The position numbers and the translations under genes were made by a program. DNA of 32,013 nucleotides from positions 1 to 32,013 of the forward strand of contig JAHLWH010000138.1 in NCBI GenBank assembly GCA_019058015.1. The letters run 5' to 3'. Source of the stretch: Promethearchaeota archaeon. GTDB lineage: Archaea; Asgardarchaeota; Lokiarchaeia; Sigyniarchaeales; SOKP01. The notes under the pieces were generated by a model. That model saw only the letters and a program-made list of their open reading frames with translations, searched no databases and was not told the origin of the DNA. Below, piece after piece: positions 2,312 through 11,923 of this stretch; the first letter of the stretch is position 1; the number at the start of each line of letters is the position of its first letter.

Positions 2312-4240
2312 ATGTCTGATGTTCGCATTGGTGTATTTGTTTGTAGATGAGGTATAAATATTGCGGGGGTTGTCGATGTTTCAAAAACCGTCGAAGAGCT
2401 GGATAAAGAAGAAAATGTCTGGGCTTGGGAGTACTTAAATATATGCACGGACACAGGAGCAGATTTTATTACTGAAAAGATAGAAGAAAAAAATCTTGAA
2501 AGGGTTGTTGTAGCGGCTTGCACTCCAAGAACACATCAACCAGTATTTCACAGTATCCTAAAAGATGCAGGCTTGCCTCCACGAATGCTTGAATTTGTAA
2601 ATATCAGAGAGCATTGTAGTTTTGTCCATATGTCAGAACCAGAAGAAGCAACTGTAAAGGCAATTGAATTAATCAAAGCAGGTATCGCGAGAGCAAATTT
2701 ATTAGAAGCTGTGCCAACCAAAATAGTTCCCGTAAAGAAATCTGCTTTAGTTGTTGGTGGCGGAATAGCGGGTTTGACAGCAGCTATTGATTTAGGAAAT
2801 GAAGGCTTTAAAGTCACTCTAGTAGAAAAAAAATCTACTACGGGTGGAAGAATGGCTCAATTGGATCGAACTTTCCCAACAGATGATTGTAGTATCTGAA
2901 TCTTGGGTCCTAAAATGTTAGAAGCAAATCGTCATCCTAATATTACTATAATGTCTCTAGCTGAAATAAAAGAGATAACAGGATATATTGGAAACTTCGA
3001 AGTTAAGGTACAGAAAAATCCAAGATATGTGTATGAAGAAACTTGCACGGGTTGTGGTCAGTGTACGGATGTTTGTCCAATATACATTCCAAACTATTTC
3101 GATGAAAATTTTTCAGCTAGAAAGTGTATTGACATTGCATTTGCACAAGCAGTTCCAGCAATTTACGACCTTGATAAAGAGTGGTGCGTAGAATGCTATG
3201 CTTGTGTTGATTCGTGTGATGTTCATTGTATTGATTTAAGTCAAGAACCCGAGATTGTTGAACTCGAAGTTGGAACGATTATAATCGCAACCGGTTGGGA
3301 CCTATATCAAGGAGATGAATATGGATACGGAAAATATGAAAATGTAGTAACACAAATTCAACTTGAAAGGATTCTCTCTCCAAATGGTCCAACTCTTGGC
3401 CATTTAAAGCGTCCATCCGATGGAAAGAGACCAAAAAACATATTATTTATTAATTGTGTTGGCTCAAGAAACGAGGAGCATCCGTGGTGCAGTAATGTAT
3501 GCTGTCTTTTATCAGTAAAAAATTCAAAACTAATAAAGTCAGAATATCCAGATGCAAATATTGTGGTTTCATACATAGATATGAGATGTGCAGGGAAAAT
3601 GTATGAAGAATATTATAAGCGTTCCAGAGAAGCCGGAATTATGTATATAAATGGGAAAGTAGGAAAATTAATTGAAGATCCAAAAACTAAGAATCTTGTC
3701 GCTAGTATGGAATCAATTGGGACTGGAGGTATTGTAGAATTTGAAGCTGATTTAGTAGTTCTATCTTCAGCATCATTACCTTCAGCTGGAACTGATGAGA
3801 TTGCACAAGTTCTAAAATTGGAGAAAAGCCCTAGTGGTTTCTTAAAGGAATTTCATCCAAGACTTGATCCCATCGAAACTAAGTCGCCTGGAATCTATAT
3901 TTGTGGTTCTTGCCAAGGGCAAAAAGCGATCGATGCAACTGTCAATCATGCAAGAGGGGCAGCACAAGCTGCTTCAATTCCGATGAACAAAGGAGAATTT
4001 GTTATTGAATTAATTCGGGCTGATCCGATTGATGAAAGGTGTGCAAAATGCTATATGTGTATAGAAACATGCCCTTATAGCGCCATCTCGGTTAATGAAG
4101 CTGGACAAATTGAAGTTGATCTTATAAGTTGTAGAGGATGCGGTATGTGTGCTGCAACTTGTCCATCAATCGCAATTGAGCTTCGTTATTACCGAGATTA
4201 TCAATTCAATGCAGTAATTGACTCATTATTCGAAGCATAA
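2312..4240 (+). CDS. hdrA: HdrA heterodisulfide reductase subunit A, selenoprotein with two in-frame UGA
   Basis: Reading through TGA at 2348-2350 and 2897-2899 gives one 642-residue protein that matches HdrA from end to end, so I treat both as Sec (residues 13 and 196). The N-terminal domain has VFVCRUGINIAG where the family has C-x-C-G-x-N. Next comes a FAD-binding motif VVGGGIAGLTAAIDL near residue 148, then DDCSIUILGPKM, where Cys is usual and Sec is known in methanogens. An inserted ferredoxin region follows (CTGCGQCTDVCP near 244, CVECYACVDSC near 290), with two C-terminal [4Fe-4S] motifs (CAKCYMCIETCP, CRGCGMCAATCP). HdrA is the flavin and Fe-S core that bifurcates or relays electrons between ferredoxin, HdrB/C-type partners and MvhD. 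The mvhD gene follows after 19 nt. No hdrB or hdrC is present here. The only SECIS seen is downstream of mvhD. Confidence 0.93.
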
Positions 4241-4259
4241 ACAAAAGGAGGAAAAAATC

Positions 4260-4688
4260 ATGAGTTCTGATATAAAGATTGCATCCTTTATGTGTTGGAA
4301 ATGAGGGTATGGCTCTGGTGATATGGCTGGTACTATTCGCGCACAATATCCAATAAGTATTAGACCGATATTAGTTCCTTGCGCTGGAAGAGTTGGTTCA
4401 GAGCTAGTTATGAGAACAATCGGTCGTGGTGCCGATGGAGTTCTAATTGTTGGATGATATCCAGGTGAATGTGATTTCGAAACAGGGAATAAATTTGCAT
4501 GGAGAGAAGTTGAATATCTTAATGAAGTTTTAGATACTATAGGTTTTTCTAATAAAAGAGTTAAAATGGCATTCTGCACTTCTGCAGAAGGACAAAAATT
4601 TCAAAGAGTAGCAACCGAATTTGACAAAGAAATTCGAAAACTAGGAAAAAACCCCCTCAAAAACAAAAATTCCGATAAGAATGAATAA
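4260..4688 (+). CDS. mvhD: MvhD/VhuD-type electron-transfer subunit, selenoprotein with two in-frame UGA
   Basis: ATG at 4260 follows AAAAGGAGG (4243-4251). Reading through TGA at 4302-4304 and 4455-4457 gives 142 residues of the MvhD family. Sec15 lies in FMCWKUGYGSGDMAGT, where the family has a CxxC-type [2Fe-2S] ligand set. Sec66 lies in VGUYPGECDFETGN, where the family has G-C-H-P-G-x-C-H-Y. Other expected ligands (Cys12, Cys in VPCAGR, Cys in PGECDF) are present. MvhD passes electrons between HdrA and a hydrogenase, formate dehydrogenase or F420-linked module. In methanogens Sec is also known in this family. The stop codon TAA at 4686-4688 is buried in the 5' stem of the SECIS hairpin. 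The reading frame ends in a Lys/Asn-rich tail of about 15 residues. Confidence 0.92.
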
Positions 4689-4801: not shown

Positions 4802-5953
4802 TTGGTGAAACTCTTGGAACCAATGGAAGAATTCTTAATAAAATATGAAGATGTTAAAAATATTTTATCATCCCTACTAAAAGAAAAGGTAGTGTCGAAG
4901 ATAATTAGTGGTGAGATCAAAAAAGGTCATTTTGCGTTATCTCCAAAATTGGTATCAACACCAGAAGAATTAAATGATTTACCGCTTTCTCAACTTATTA
5001 CTTATGGTTATGCTCGAACCGATAGTGCATCTAAATATTTACATAAAAATGCAAATGGCGCATTGGACGAAAAAATAGGGCTTATTGCTCGTCCTTGCGA
5101 TACAAGAGCAATAATCGAACTTATTAAATTACATCAAATCAATCCTGATAATTTATTTATTATTGCAATTGAAGATATGGGACTAATCCCGTCTTCAATG
5201 ATTACAAAGATATTTAACAAAAGAAAGGAGTTTGATCAAAGTAAAATAATTCGGGATAAATTAACCGCTGAAAATCTTACCCTTGTCTTAGATGGTGGGA
5301 GTTTAGAGGTTTTGGAGTTTAATGATAATTTAAAAATAGCAGATAATTGTTTGAGATGCCTAAGAAAAGTTCCTGTTATAGGTGATTTATCGATAAGTGA
5401 TATCGGAATCTCCGTAAAATCAGATGATTTAATATTACGTATTTATTCTGAGAAGGGAAAGTCTGCTGTTGAGAAAGCTGGAATTAAAACCAGAAAAATT
5501 CCCGATGACCTAAAAAAACACAATACTGAAAGAGTAGCGACTATTTTAAAAAATGCTGAAGAAAAACGCACTAAAGATTTGGAAGAATGGAAAACTATGA
5601 ATCAAGATGAAAAATTGGAAATGTTAAACAAATGCACTATGTGTGGTCTCTGCATTCGCGGTTGCCCAGTATGCTACTGTATTGATTGTATTTTAATGCA
5701 AAAACGAAAAGAAAAATCAATTAATAATACTGCATATCAATTAACCCGCGTTGCACATGTCGCTGACAGATGTGTGGAATGCGGTAATTGTGCCAATAAT
5801 TGTCCAATGAACTTACCATTATCTGAATACTTCCAATCATTAATTGATACATTTAAAGAGAAATTTAATTATGTTGCTGGAGAATCAGTTGACGATATTC
5901 CATTCCGCTCTGGTAAAGCAATAAAGGAAATGGAATTAGAAAAAACCGCTTAA
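4802..5953 (+). CDS. FrhB/FdhB-family F420/flavin dehydrogenase beta subunit with two C-terminal [4Fe-4S] motifs
   Basis: About 380 residues. Possible starts are TTG 4802, GTG 4805 or ATG 4823; no clear Shine-Dalgarno decides. The N-terminal two-thirds resembles the coenzyme F420 hydrogenase/dehydrogenase beta family (IARPCDTRAIIELIKL and ADNCLRCLRKVP are family-like Cys segments). The C-terminus has two ferredoxin motifs, CTMCGLCIRGCP and CVECGNCANNCP. Such subunits carry FAD and Fe-S clusters and exchange electrons with F420H2, NAD(P)H or formate dehydrogenase. Placed 113 nt after mvhD in the same direction, it is the likely electron-input or output subunit for the Hdr-Mvh module. It contains no in-frame UGA. 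The substrate (F420, NAD(P) or other) is not shown by the sequence. Confidence 0.8.
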   Translation: MVKLLEPMEEFLIKYEDVKNILSSLLKEKVVSKIISGEIKKGHFALSPKLVSTPEELNDLPLSQLITYGYARTDSASKYLHKNANGALDEKIGLIARPCDTRAIIELIKLHQINPDNLFIIAIEDMGLIPSSMITKIFNKRKEFDQSKIIRDKLTAENLTLVLDGGSLEVLEFNDNLKIADNCLRCLRKVPVIGDLSISDIGISVKSDDLILRIYSEKGKSAVEKAGIKTRKIPDDLKKHNTERVATILKNAEEKRTKDLEEWKTMNQDEKLEMLNKCTMCGLCIRGCPVCYCIDCILMQKRKEKSINNTAYQLTRVAHVADRCVECGNCANNCPMNLPLSEYFQSLIDTFKEKFNYVAGESVDDIPFRSGKAIKEMELEKTA

Positions 5954-6017
5954 AAATATAATTTTTTATTAAATTCTTACTTAATTTTTTTGAATAATTA
6001 AAGGGCGCAACCCTTTT

Positions 6018-6053
6018 GTCAATCTTTCACTAACATTTTTTGAAAGATATCAT
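6018..6053 (-). promoter_or_regulatory. Second SECIS copy, apparently orphaned
   Basis: On the minus strand this reads AUGA, a 5' stem strand, AAAAAAUGUUAGU loop, the 3' stem strand GAAAGAU and UGAC, nearly identical to 8538-8573. The stem here pairs fully over 7 bp, while the other copy has one mismatch. The adjacent GC hairpin AAAGGG/CCCTTT (6000-6016) is also shared between the two copies and could terminate transcription of the plus-strand gene ending at 5953. The only coding sequence just upstream of this SECIS on its strand is a fragment of the C-terminus of the same selenoprotein family (6059-6118), so it no longer serves an intact gene. Confidence 0.7.
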
Positions 6054-6058
6054 CCAAA

Positions 6059-6118
6059 TTATATAGGTTTTTTCAGACTCTCAAAATAATTAGTAAAATT
6101 TCCAATCGCTTTTAAAAT
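6059..6118 (-). pseudogene. Remnant of the C-terminus of a beta-grasp selenoprotein paralogue
   Basis: The minus-strand frame ending at TAA 6061-6059 reads LKAIGNFTNYFESLKKPI. It aligns with the C-terminal tail of the selenoprotein at 8585 (MKKFGKENEYFAHYFKKLKK) with a similar spacing from stop to SECIS (5 nt against 11 nt). Upstream of about 6120 I see no further similarity and no UGA-UGA site, and the plus-strand gene at 6200 begins soon after. This is best read as a decayed duplicate, with most of the gene lost and the 3' end plus SECIS remaining. Confidence 0.55.
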
Positions 6119-6199
6119 AAAAATAGTTATGAGATATAAATCGAAGAATTTAAATTCATATTTACTTTTTTATATCCTATTAATTTATTGGGATAAGAA

Positions 6200-6529
6200 A
6201 TGTCAATTATATTATCCAAAAAATCTCAAGAATTCATAAAAAAAAATAAGATCTCTAATTTATTCATCGATATTAATTTTATTGAAGAAAAATGCGTTCA
6301 AATTTATGAACCAAAAATAAAAATAATAGAAAGAACAGATTTAAACGAATATAATAATTTTGAAAGTATATCTTCTGAAAAATTGACTATTTTTTTATCA
6401 GAAAAATTTATCCAAATTTATGGACAATTGACTGAATATTATTTAGATTTTGCTGGCTTTCTTAAAAAAGAGTTGATTATTGAAAATGCTGAACCAATTA
6501 TAAAAAACCTTTGCAAAATTGGAAAATAA
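6200..6529 (+). CDS. Hypothetical small protein, possibly HesB/IscA-like
   Basis: A 109-residue ATG-started frame with strong Lys/Ile/Asn bias. The N-terminus (MSIILSKKSQEFIKKNKIS) and size recall HesB/IscA-type small proteins that have the form beta-strand, helix, then a Cys-bearing loop. Only two Cys are present (EEKCVQIYEP and the near-terminal NLCKIGK), and the A-type Fe-S motif is not evident. It precedes the thioredoxin and CcdA genes in the same direction with a 41-nt gap, so a thiol or Fe-S role would fit the context. I do not recognise it with confidence. Confidence 0.5.
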   Translation: MSIILSKKSQEFIKKNKISNLFIDINFIEEKCVQIYEPKIKIIERTDLNEYNNFESISSEKLTIFLSEKFIQIYGQLTEYYLDFAGFLKKELIIENAEPIIKNLCKIGK

Positions 6530-8537: not shown

Positions 8538-8573
8538 GTCAATCTTGCACTAACATTTTTTGAAAGATATCAT
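8538..8573 (-). promoter_or_regulatory. SECIS element for the beta-grasp selenoprotein
   Basis: On the minus strand, 11 nt after the TAG stop at 8587-8585: AUGA (8573-8570), a 5' strand UAUCUUUC, a 13-nt loop AAAAAAUGUUAGU, a 3' strand GCAAGAU and UGAC ending at 8538. UGA and GA form the expected G-A tandem, with a U-U next to it. The stem has one internal mismatch (U-C). A short lower helix UUUG/CAAA flanks the quartet. Architecture and loop match the SECIS at 4681-4716 although the surrounding genes are unrelated. Confidence 0.82.
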
Positions 8574-8584
8574 ACAAATTTAAT

Positions 8585-9053
8585 CTATTTCTTTAGTTTT
8601 TTAAAGTAATGGGCAAAATATTCATTTTCTTTTCCGAATTTTTTCATAATGATCTTTTTGAGTGAACCCATATCTAATCGTTGCTTGACCTTTTCTCATC
8701 AACATCCAGCATCAGGATGTAGCTTAATCTCACTATCTGGATACAAATTGAAATCCAAATTATCCCGAAGAGGCATAAACTGTCTATTAGGTCCATAAGC
8801 ATTCACAGCGCAGTCGTCGTATATCTCATTTTTTTGTGGATTCCAGAATAATTGTAGATAAGTTTTAATATAGCCCTCATATAAAGGGAATGGAGAATTT
8901 TCTGGATTTTCTAAAACATGTTTATCCACAATAGCTAATGCTTCAATAAATTTAGCGTCGTCCTTTACTAATACCTCATATTTTTTACCTTCATTGAGCC
9001 CTTTTACAGGTGCAAAAATTGTAAATTCAATTTTTTTAATTTTTCACCACCAT
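8585..9053 (-). CDS. MoaD/ThiS-like beta-grasp selenoprotein with Cys-Sec-Sec near the C-terminus
   Basis: The clean frame begins MDKHVLENPEN at 8929 and stops at TGA (8701-8699), but a second TGA follows directly (8698-8696). The frame then stays open for 36 more codons to TAG 8585, with a SECIS 11 nt later. Upstream the frame continues without a start to about 9040. Removing one A from the A5 run at 9040-9044 joins it to ATG 9053 (MVVKIKKIEFTIFAPV), for 155 residues in all with Sec118 and Sec119. The pattern is beta-strand start, VNAYGPNRQFMPL, then PDSEIKLHPDAGC. The last part matches the G-D-E-V-x-L-x-P-P-V-x-G-G end of MoaD/ThiS proteins, with the Gly-Gly tail replaced by G-C-U-U and then a basic tail. 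Function unknown; a sulfur/selenium carrier or redox role is inference. Confidence 0.72.
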
Positions 9054-9135: not shown

Positions 9136-10284
9136 TTATCTTTTTAGGTTATTTATATTTGCTGATGGCTTCTTCATATCTTTCCCAAAAACCATGGCTT
9201 CTTCATATCCTTCCCAAAAACCACGCCTTCCTAAAAATCTACCTAAATATACCATAGACAGCATCACAGGAACTTCCCAGAATAACCCCATTGTAGTACC
9301 TAACGCCGCAATTGAACCAACTCCATACATCGCAACAGCAACGGCAATAGCAATCTCAAAATGGCTCGAAGAGCCAATAATTATTGTAATTATTGCATAA
9401 CGATAGCTCAATTTTAACAGTTTGGTGATTAATATATTGTAACCAACAACAATAGCAAATCCAACTAAGAGGGGGATAGTAATTAATAACAATAAATCTG
9501 GGTTTCCTACAAGGACTTCGCCGTTTAATGAAAATAATACAACTAAAGTCATCAGCAATGCAATTATTGCTACTGTCGATACAGCGGGTTTATACTTAGT
9601 GTTAAACCACACCTCCCCTTTTGTTTTAGTTAAAGCTTTCTTAGTTATTATCCCTAACAATAGTGGTAGCCCAATAAATACAGCTAAAGAAATCAATAAG
9701 GTCATCGGATCTAAAGGAATTTTTTTCTCTAAAGTAATATTTGCTAGAAATACTAGGAGAGTTACAACAGGTATATACAAAAAAATAATAGTGACCGTAT
9801 TTAAGCTAGTTGTAACTACATTTTGTTCTTGATTTCCTTTTGCCATCCAACCCCATACTAATACCATAGCAGTACATGGACTACTGCTAAGTAAAAGAAC
9901 AGCTAAAACGAGTTGTTCATTTACTCTTAGGAATAAGATTGCCATTGCAGCACCCACTAAAGGAGCTACAATCCAATTGGATAATAACGTTAATATTATT
10001 GGTTTGGGATTTTTTCCCAATTTTTTCAGCTCAGATACTTGGAGATTTAACATTGCTGGATACATCATAAGAAAAAGGCAGATACCAATAGGTATAGAAA
10101 TCCCCGCAATTTGCCAAGAATCAATCGTCTCACCTATTCCAGGAACGAACTGCGATAGTAAGATCCCTAATAACATGCATAATGCGATCCAAATAGGAAG
10201 TAATTTCTCGAAAAAACTGATCCCTTTAGGTTTTTCTTTATTACTTTCTACTTCCGCCACAAGTCCCGCCTCAATTTCTGTCAA
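9136..10284 (-). CDS. acr3: ACR3-family arsenite efflux transporter
   Basis: 382 residues with about ten hydrophobic helices. The family Cys in TM4 is present (SSSPCTAMVLVWGWMAKGN), as is the late helix motif GSSSHFEIAIAVAVAMYG. ACR3 exports arsenite, sometimes antimonite, using the proton gradient. The divergent arsR at 10420 and the inverted repeats between them indicate metalloid control. The C-terminus carries a tandem 29-bp duplication (9165-9222). Since 29 is not a multiple of 3, the second copy is read in another frame, giving the tail WEGYEEAMVFGKDMKKP. The change is beyond the last helix, so transport is probably unaffected. ATG 10284 is assumed; there is no strong Shine-Dalgarno. 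Confidence 0.88.
   Translation of the reverse strand: MTEIEAGLVAEVESNKEKPKGISFFEKLLPIWIALCMLLGILLSQFVPGIGETIDSWQIAGISIPIGICLFLMMYPAMLNLQVSELKKLGKNPKPIILTLLSNWIVAPLVGAAMAILFLRVNEQLVLAVLLLSSSPCTAMVLVWGWMAKGNQEQNVVTTSLNTVTIIFLYIPVVTLLVFLANITLEKKIPLDPMTLLISLAVFIGLPLLLGIITKKALTKTKGEVWFNTKYKPAVSTVAIIALLMTLVVLFSLNGEVLVGNPDLLLLITIPLLVGFAIVVGYNILITKLLKLSYRYAIITIIIGSSSHFEIAIAVAVAMYGVGSIAALGTTMGLFWEVPVMLSMVYLGRFLGRRGFWEGYEEAMVFGKDMKKPSANINNLKR
9165..9222. repeat. 29-bp tandem duplication in the 3' end of acr3
   Basis: Two adjacent 29-bp copies (9165-9193 and 9194-9222) differ by one base (T/C). They lie in the acr3 C-terminal codons and shift the frame of the tail. The near-identity suggests a recent slippage event. 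Confidence 0.85.
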
Positions 10285-10419: not shown

Positions 10420-10770
10420 ATGGAAAAAAAAACAATTGAAGAAATTAAAAAGTTAATTGAATGTATTGGTCTTAATGTAGATGTAAATGAATATATTAAA
10501 GAATTAAAGAAAAACAAAGATAAAATTTTATCTAATACTGACTTTAAAAAGATGGTTAATTTTCATAAAGCGCTTGGACATAGGTCTAGGTATTTAATTT
10601 ATAATTTGATAAAGAAAAAAAAAATGTGCATATGTGAGTTAAATGTGATTATAGACTTAGCCCAACCAACAATTTCACATCATGTGAAAATTTTAGAACA
10701 AGCAGATTTGATTGAAGGAATAAAAAATGGTAAATTTACTCATTATCAAATTATAAAGGAAATTAATTAG
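10420..10770 (+). CDS. arsR: ArsR-family metalloregulator next to acr3
   Basis: 116 residues. An N-terminal helical extension (about 1-45) precedes a winged helix. The metal-site motif KKMCICELNVII (C-x-C before the recognition helix) is the ArsR/SmtB alpha3-type site, and PTISHHVKILEQADLIEG is the DNA-recognition helix and turn. Such proteins repress metalloid resistance genes and release DNA on binding As(III) or another thiophilic ion. It is divergent from acr3, so autoregulation through the dyads at 10326-10376 is likely. Confidence 0.85.
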   Translation: MEKKTIEEIKKLIECIGLNVDVNEYIKELKKNKDKILSNTDFKKMVNFHKALGHRSRYLIYNLIKKKKMCICELNVIIDLAQPTISHHVKILEQADLIEGIKNGKFTHYQIIKEIN

Positions 10771-10824: not shown

Positions 10825-11292
10825 CTAGCAATTAATATTTTTTTCTCGTAATTTATCCAAGATATAATTCGAAATTTTTTCAACTTCTTCCTGATTCACA
10901 TCGTTTGCCTTAGGGATTTTTTGAAAAGCGTAAGGATCATTTAAATCTAAATCTTGTTTAGGAACGAATTGTTGAAGGTTAATTACTAAATCGGGTTTTA
11001 TATCAAGAGCTTTTAGGATCTGAACCATACATGATGTTCTACAACCATCAATTACTATTATATAATTTGAAAATAATCGTTGTTTAGTCATTTCAAAAAG
11101 ATTTTCTTTCTTAAGTAAATAATTTCTTAAAAAAAAAGTTGAGCAAAAAAATTCACTAAAATTTGAGATTGAATCATTAACATCTAAGTTTAATGCAATT
11201 TTGCGTGCCAATTCCCCATTATATTCAGATCCTGAGCAGGGTATTAAGATAATACTTTTTTCAGGTGTTTTCATTTCTGTCATTTGTATCAT
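10825..11292 (-). CDS. DGC-domain putative zinc/thiol protein
   Basis: 155 residues. It begins the family core with IILIPCSGSEYNGELARKIAL and has the signature Asp-Gly-Cys in IVIDGCRTSCMVQIL. The DGC family is named for this triad and is proposed to bind zinc through conserved Cys; its biochemical role is unknown. It is the last gene of a minus-strand operon, arsR2 / thioredoxin-like / this gene, with gaps of 12-13 nt. Three further DGC-type proteins lie in the facing cluster at 12822-14551. Control by ArsR and pairing with a thioredoxin-like protein suggest a thiol or metalloid role. The family call is firm; function is inference. Confidence 0.78.
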   Translation of the reverse strand: MIQMTEMKTPEKSIILIPCSGSEYNGELARKIALNLDVNDSISNFSEFFCSTFFLRNYLLKKENLFEMTKQRLFSNYIIVIDGCRTSCMVQILKALDIKPDLVINLQQFVPKQDLDLNDPYAFQKIPKANDVNQEEVEKISNYILDKLREKNINC

Positions 11293-11304: not shown

Positions 11305-11589
11305 CTATATTATGCCTTTTTCTTTCAAAAGTTCAGGCAATTTTTGTTTGAATAGAAATGGAGATGTAAAAATTACTTTTCCCTCAACAACTACGCTATT
11401 ACCGCGCAAATTTAATTTACGAGCTTCTTCAGAATCTAAATTTTTAGTTTGAAATTTAATTTTTTTTTTATAATCCTGAAAAGCCGAAAAAACAGAATTC
11501 ATAAATCTTTCCCATATACACGCGCATGTATTTAATGGCACATAAATATCGACTTTAAGTTTATGATCTACATCATTATCCTTTGACAT
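11305..11589 (-). CDS. Small thioredoxin-fold protein with C-A-C motif
   Basis: 94 residues: a beta-strand KVDIYVPLNTCACIWERFMNSVF, then helix, strand (KIKFQTKNL), and the NSVVVEGKVIFTSPFLFKQKLPELL half typical of small ArsE/glutaredoxin-like folds, with VEGKVIF as the late hairpin. The active-site region is T-C-A-C rather than CxxC. Located 13 nt after arsR2 and 12 nt before a DGC gene, it is probably a cytosolic thiol carrier for that protein. Related small thioredoxin-like proteins occur as selenoproteins in selenium-linked gene clusters (from memory); no UGA is present here. Confidence 0.65.
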   Translation of the reverse strand: MSKDNDVDHKLKVDIYVPLNTCACIWERFMNSVFSAFQDYKKKIKFQTKNLDSEEARKLNLRGNSVVVEGKVIFTSPFLFKQKLPELLKEKGII

Positions 11590-11602
11590 AATACCACCCT
11601 AC

Positions 11603-11923
11603 TTAAATTTCAGCTTGTATTTCTACAATTTTTTTAAATTTTTTATTCCTTTTTATCAAATTATCGATAGTTGCTAACAATTTGAATATTTGAGGATCTT
11701 TAATTCTATAAAGCACTTTCACGCCTTCTTTTCTTCCAACGATTAAGTCAGCATTCATCAATTTTTTTAAATGCCTAGAAAGCGTAGATTGGGACTTTTC
11801 GAACACTTTCTCCAAGTCACAAGCGCACAATTCCTCTCCATGTCTAAGAAGGCTTAGAATTTCGAGACGAGATACATCAGACAGGGCGTTTAATAACTTT
11901 AATCTTAAATTTTGAAGATCCAC
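11603..11923 (-). CDS. Second ArsR-family regulator
   Basis: 106 residues. Winged helix with GEELCACDLEKVFEKSQSTLSRHLKKLMNADLIVGR; the C-A-C-D metal-site motif is ArsR-like. It is the first gene of the minus-strand operon with the thioredoxin-like and DGC genes and is divergent from the HdrA-N/ferredoxin/DGC-GcvH cluster. It is the natural regulator of both through the dyad at 12039-12054. It differs strongly from the 10420 paralogue. Confidence 0.85.
   Translation of the reverse strand: MDLQNLRLKLLNALSDVSRLEILSLLRHGEELCACDLEKVFEKSQSTLSRHLKKLMNADLIVGRKEGVKVLYRIKDPQIFKLLATIDNLIKRNKKFKKIVEIQAEI

Follow-up and report, generated by a model that had tools for sequence, protein, structure and literature searches.

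The window (the whole stretch of DNA analysed here, 32,013 nucleotides) contains a small minus-strand gene that carries two adjacent in-frame UGA codons. The locus raises the question of whether both codons are read as selenocysteine (Sec) and what function such a pair could serve. Our answer to the first part is that the gene very likely represents a real and new selenoprotein family of the Lokiarchaeia, named here the di-Sec family. Its members would be beta-grasp proteins similar to MoaD, SAMP and Urm1, in which Gly-Cys-Sec-Sec stands in place of the Gly-Gly end, with a conserved helical tail behind it. This answer is based on sequence comparison and structure prediction, and the presence of selenium in the protein is undemonstrated.

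Conservation of the two UGA codons

The open reading frame 9040-8585 encodes 151 aa and reads IKKIEFTIF...HPDAGC-UGA-UGA-EKVKQ...KKLKK (Table 1). The UGAs occupy positions 8701-8699 and 8698-8696, and the frame stays open for 36 further codons up to the TAG at 8587-8585. The original prediction had described the motif HPDAGC-UGA-UGA-EKVKQ, the 36 open codons and a SECIS element 11 nt behind the TAG, and all of these held when the sequence was re-read. Its product of 155 residues held in part only, the small difference lying in the choice of the start. The AUU start of the window gene is inferred. Start codons other than AUG, among them AUU, AUA and AUC, are recurrent in the family (window 9040, L035:6517, L082:7550, L090:7103, L038:3208), and in several members a stop codon is located directly upstream, so that AUU is the first possible codon.

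Table 1. Coordinates of the features of the di-Sec locus in the window
Feature	Position	Strand	Description or evidence
Di-Sec beta-grasp CDS (fold predicted)	8585..9040	-	151 aa; start AUU (inferred), stop TAG, two UGAs in frame
Two adjacent UGA codons, Sec114 and Sec115, after Gly112-Cys113	8696..8701	-	Kept in all 77 site-spanning homologues
C-terminal helical tail behind the Sec pair	8588..8695	-	36 residues; open frame, low pN/pS, modelled helices
Shine-Dalgarno-like GGTGGTGA preceding the AUU start	9044..9051	-	Sequence; relatives with the same arrangement
Type-I eSECIS-like hairpin, AUGA / UAUCUUUCA / AAAAAUGUUAG / UGCAAGAUU / GA	8539..8573	-	Comparison with 24 homologues
Orphan SECIS, no ORF in front	6019..6053	-	3'-flank identity to di-Sec genes
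ACR3 arsenite efflux transporter	9136..10284	-	Co-directional, immediately upstream; TIGR00832 290.1 bits (cut-off 282.8); PF01758
ArsR-family regulator, divergent to acr3	10420..10770	+	PF01022
DGC-domain protein	10825..11292	-	PF08859
TrxCAC, thioredoxin-fold C-x-C protein	11305..11589	-	Sequence family and predicted fold
ArsR-family regulator	11603..11923	-	PF01022

A search of 228 Asgard genomes yielded about 80 homologous ORFs in 66 genomes, and a profile search of the 228 genomes gave the same main set. The genomes compared are largely metagenome assemblies. From the 81 ORFs extracted, four are truncated by contig ends before the motif; TGA-TGA is adjacent in each of the 77 ORFs that span the site. 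The UGAs are still kept where the identity to the window protein goes down to approximately 22-30%, in members from other families and orders and from sister groups of the class. Homologues ending at the first UGA, without conservation beyond it, would have refuted the original prediction; this is not the case, since the tail is conserved as well. The family is restricted to one class-level group (families f1 to f7). SepSecS is present in nearly all carriers, the exceptions G085 and G151 being incomplete genomes (66% and 79%). In the window genome, SepSecS was detected with an E-value of 2.8e-116 and tRNA-Sec with 60.1 bits (Rfam gathering score 47). No Cys homologue was found in the 228 Asgard genomes (outside the Asgards only one single-sequence pattern scan was made), and a search of viral contigs and plasmids for homologues gave no matches.

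The change observed in the tail behind the UGAs is mostly synonymous. Among genomes of the same genus, pS is comprised between 0.43 and 0.57 and pN between 0.06 and 0.10. From the comparison of the window with L076, we obtain pS 0.60 and pN 0.08 before the UGAs, and pS 0.43 and pN 0.09 after them. Over 45 tails the means are 0.72 (pS) and 0.19 (pN), and pS/pN is similar on both sides of the UGAs. Purifying selection is thus the same behind the UGAs as in front of them. These data bear on the simplest rival explanation, in which the UGAs are tandem stops and the frame behind them stays open merely by chance. A single open frame of 36 codons is indeed not improbable in AT-rich DNA; however, conservation, codon selection and SECIS elements over about 80 genes speak against this reading, which is all but excluded. 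We rejected it on the conservation of the UGAs and the selection on the tail.

Additional in-frame UGAs were observed at non-conserved places, in L096:6827-7294 (in place of a Gly codon) and near the start in the N-termini of L044, L051 and L054. Given the 3' SECIS, they may be read as Sec, or they may be assembly errors.

SECIS element

The hairpin begins (ATGA, 8573) 11 nt past the TAG of the di-Sec gene. It conforms to the type-I eukaryote-like SECIS described for Asgards, which has an AUGA_GA core and an A-rich apical loop (PMC11227280). In the window element, two positions of the 9-bp stem are unpaired, and it falls just below the scan threshold. Taken singly, its RNA folding is unremarkable (z -0.29) and it has no Rfam match. 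It is more intact in close relatives. With the scored SECIS pattern (score >=10), 57 of 74 3' flanks are positive, versus 0.7% of shuffled flanks. In 24 aligned hairpins, 97.4% of the cells are paired and two-sided changes occur in all 8 stem pairs tested; none of 500 shuffles came near these values, and the slid controls likewise did not. The 24 hairpins had been picked by a pairing scan, which biases the paired percentage upward; the two-sided changes are not explained by that alone. The SECIS element of the di-Sec gene is evident only by comparison across relatives.

The same type of hairpin is found behind the hdrA-mvhD operon, as had been predicted. The two genes (2573-4688, plus strand) both contain Sec (U109 in HdrA, two Sec in MvhD, PF02662), their SECIS at +4681 overlaps the mvhD stop, and standard gene finding splits both genes at the UGAs.

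A further SECIS stands without any ORF in front of it. Its flank (5951-6062) shares 97.3% identity over 112 nt with the 3' flank of the L076 di-Sec gene and 95% over 59 nt with that of the window gene. We consider it likely that this orphan is a relic and that the gene moved from beside an FrhB-like gene to behind acr3. The same relic is present in G094 (L075). In the near-complete genome G097, of the same genus, a decayed remnant (YPDSEIKLHPDAG-U-C-stop) lies beside an FrhB-like gene (L106, near 7060), and the di-Sec gene has been lost there.

Predicted fold and forms of the Sec pair

An AlphaFold2 model was obtained from an alignment of 59 sequences, with Sec modelled as Cys (mean pLDDT 92.5, pTM 0.89; approximately 71 in the motif region). 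The modelled elements are beta-beta-alpha, then beta and beta, then helices. The best Foldseek match is SAMP1 of Haloferax (probability 1.00, TM 0.65 by target, E 2e-3), and the next matches include Urm1 and MoaD (structures 4hro, 3po0, 7q5n and 1vjk in the list). The family profile also matches ordinary MoaD-like proteins that end in PPVGGG and PPVAGG, encoded by other Asgards (E 2.8e-5 in G179, E 2e-3 in G002). With hhalign, the comparison to eight ThiS/MoaD-like proteins gives an E-value of 2e-4 and a probability of 45%, and the alignment ends at PDA/PPV, just before Gly-Cys/Gly-Gly. The di-Sec protein has no Pfam ThiS match, and a sequence search of the PDB with the family profile returned nothing credible. 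The beta-grasp fold that had been proposed is thus well supported as a model prediction, by structure comparison, profile matches and hhalign; common descent with the MoaD-like proteins is likely and not proven. Beside this predicted fold and the weak but direct profile homology, the di-Sec protein differs from SAMP1, MoaD and Urm1 by the Cys-Sec-Sec at the Gly-Gly site, by a mid-domain elaboration, by a conserved helical tail of approximately 30-48 residues and by the location of its gene in an ars operon instead of a cofactor operon.

In the multi-alignment, all members have Sec in column 114 (window numbering). The common form, G-C-U-U, has the Sec pair at 114-115. A second form, HAD-U-U-AD, has the pair at 113-114 and is often a tandem paralogue. 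A small third form, SA-U-G-U-U, has the pair at 114-115 and an additional Sec at 112. The second and third forms constitute one clade each, with full support (100/100). The register of the pair has moved by one residue, apparently once, with adjacency kept, which fits a site needing two neighbouring selenols or a two-ligand site. The consensus C-[UC]-[UC] expected by the original prediction does not cover the whole range: the family shows C-U-U, U-U-A or (U)G-U-U, without any Cys form among the members found. Its replacement of Gly-Gly by Gly-Cys-Sec-Sec plus a tail held, the adjacency of the UGAs and the downstream conservation being established. Asp39, Gln63, Asp76, Arg121 and Tyr145 are also invariant or nearly so.

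The fold, and a motif located where Gly-Gly used to be, support a second rival, in which the protein is a ubiquitin-like or S/Se carrier that is processed behind Gly-Cys or employs its Sec pair to carry Se. However, the Gly-Gly needed for adenylation is absent, G-C-U-U, D-U-U-A or U-G-U-U standing there with a conserved tail, and the protein does not qualify for this reason as a conjugatable or thiocarboxylate-forming carrier. Moreover, Gly112 and Cys113 are replaced in the second and third subfamilies, conservation runs through the whole tail, and no E1/MoeB-like gene is prominent among the common neighbour clusters. We regard the carrier reading as very unlikely. A cleaved ubiquitin-like precursor was rejected, the tail being as conserved as the core. 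The Se-carrier centre and the tail cleavage, which the original prediction had suggested and left open, respectively, are both unsupported.

Arsenic-resistance operons and candidate functions

The window gene lies approximately 95 bases behind the ACR3 gene, an arsenic context that the first reading of the sequence had missed. Neighbours were assigned to classes by BLAST to representatives around 66 main-family genes, many of them on short contigs, so that all counts are lower bounds. ACR3 is located within 6 kb of at least 40 of the 66 genes, ArsR is near at least 38-40, ArsC near at least 11 and ArsM near at least 7. TrxCAC is within 6 kb in at least 50, and immediately upstream in at least 34; in 31 of these it is a free protein, and in 3 it is joined to the ArsM C-terminus. 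TrxCAC has a predicted thioredoxin fold with an invariant C-x-C, its Foldseek matches are ordinary thioredoxins, and it has no Pfam match and a weak resemblance to the selenoprotein TsoX. Some members have N-terminal Cys-Cys-rich extensions like those of ArsM; sequence homology to ArsD was sought without a match. The main di-Sec family belongs to arsenic-resistance operons.

Two further neighbours, each near at least 18 of the 66 genes, are a fusion of a SAM-methyltransferase with an HgcA-like corrinoid domain (motif NVWCAARG) and an HgcB-like ferredoxin; both score under the NCBIfam equivalog cut-offs. Fusion and ferredoxin lie inside ars operons, and the methyltransferase part is CpaM-like (L095:4499-6148, with the ferredoxin at 6176-6508; also L036, L052, L081, L082, L090, L092, L100 and L102). 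SAM has been demonstrated as methyl donor of the mercury methylase (PMC11588087). The pair is a possible candidate for corrinoid-dependent methylation of arsenic (or mercury) in Lokiarchaeia.

Our best explanation, for which we would claim no more than an even chance, is that the Cys-Sec-Sec site binds and transfers a soft metal(loid), chiefly arsenic. This function is inferred, and there is no direct evidence of As or Hg binding. The Cys-Sec-Sec cluster (or Sec-Sec, or Sec-Gly-Sec-Sec) would be a soft-ligand site capturing trivalent arsenic, inorganic or methylated, and possibly Hg. TrxCAC would keep the cluster reduced or exchange with it, and the load would be handed to ACR3 for efflux, or to ArsM or the SAM-methyltransferase-HgcA-like protein for methylation. 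A site for trivalent arsenic is favoured because adjacent soft ligands in As and Hg proteins are usually metal(loid) sites: ArsD uses Cys12, Cys13 and Cys18 as arsenic ligands (PMC4562236), HgcB has the vicinal Cys94-95 (PMC11588087), and the selenoproteins SaoC, MbdU and HgcA carry CU motifs (PMC13188914). Mercury is not excluded as substrate because the mercury methylase is a relative of the HgcA-like fusion. The proposed job is that of ArsD with its vicinal cysteines, also a small ars-operon protein with adjacent soft ligands (Cys12-Cys13 plus Cys18). However, the folds are unrelated (thioredoxin-like in ArsD, beta-grasp as predicted here), Sec stands for Cys and there is no sequence relation, so the parallel is an analogy of working only, As(III) binding and transfer being inferred.

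Against mere binding, the conserved Asp39, Gln63, Asp76, Arg121 and Tyr145 may point to catalysis, and a redox cycle would accommodate a thioredoxin-like partner just as well. The main rival, which remains possible, is a Se-dependent, thioredoxin-coupled arsenical reductase. One Sec would attack arsenate or methylated As(V), the neighbouring Sec or Cys would resolve the intermediate as a diselenide or selenylsulfide, and TrxCAC would reduce the pair, the di-Sec protein standing in for ArsC in an arsR-acr3-arsC layout. In favour of it, TrxCAC is the most constant neighbour, ArsC is scarce, and the near-invariant Arg121 follows shortly after the Sec pair, accompanied by conserved Asp and Tyr. 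Against it, ArsC and the di-Sec gene co-occur at some loci (e.g. L092 and L102), and diselenides between adjacent residues are strained rings. The di-Sec protein has neither the LMW-phosphatase nor the glutaredoxin-type ArsC fold (AlphaFold2/Foldseek) and gives no ArsC family match; to our knowledge, no arsenate reductase has its beta-grasp fold.

The binding and transfer reading is also weakened by the 11 divergent members, of which only one has an arsenic neighbourhood, so that the role may be broader or shifted. Locus L065, from another family of the order, adjoins ACR3, ArsR, an ArsP permease and a thioredoxin. Other divergent members are near genes of aldehyde ferredoxin oxidoreductase (AOR; L066, L067 and L073) or of CDF cation efflux (L064, L072 and L074), and the rest near unrelated genes. 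The AOR and CDF neighbours, together with the MoaD-like ancestry, would support a last rival, a redox or metal-site helper for other enzymes (AOR maturation, metal export) with arsenic as a later specialisation. This is unlikely: the loci are few, on mixed strands and without a consistent operon, and the ars linkage of the main family is far stronger.

No Pfam or NCBIfam model matches the di-Sec protein. It is absent from the seven families of the Asgard selenoproteome reported in 2024 (SelD, FrhA, HdrA, FrhD, Prx-like, AhpF-N and DsbA-like), from a search that began with known selenoprotein families (PMC11227280); organisms, Sec machinery and type-I eSECIS-like element are the same. A 2026 review tabulates 119 prokaryotic selenoprotein families and subfamilies, with no Sec-Sec motif and no beta-grasp selenoprotein in its table (PMC13188914), and conserved adjacent selenocysteines are new relative to this inventory. 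The '_UU' in two NCBIfam names designates the motifs UxxG and CxxU, and not adjacency (table in PMC13188914). The bacterial selenoproteins linked to As or Hg (ArsM-AhpD NF041537, ArsM-DUF2284 NF041536, MbdU, SaoC and Sec-HgcA/HgcB) similarly use Sec with metal(loid) methylation or transport and contain CU motifs (PMC13188914), but they belong to other families and no Sec-Sec motif is given for any. The family was not found in the open-access literature searched; it could still have been described in a preprint or a subscription journal.

The di-Sec family would extend the Asgard selenoproteome and show that a ubiquitin-type scaffold has been converted to a selenium site. Lokiarchaea are close archaeal relatives of eukaryotes, and adjacent Sec in their ars operons suggests a selenium chemistry for arsenic, which would link the two elements in these relatives. 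A bolder reading, to which we lean less than to its negation, is that vicinal Sec-Sec on a ubiquitin-like fold forms a novel site for catalysis or metal(loid) binding. It would have evolved from a sulfur-carrier-type protein and, in Asgard archaea, would drive the Se-dependent reduction or transfer of arsenic (perhaps corrinoid-dependent methylation).

To translate the di-Sec genes, the ribosome would have to decode two consecutive UGAs, in tandem genes such as those of L035 apparently with one shared SECIS. Tandem paralogues were observed in L035:6027-6978, L038, L058 and L061. In L035 the second gene is directly behind the first, and one SECIS, located behind the second gene, was found for the four UGAs.
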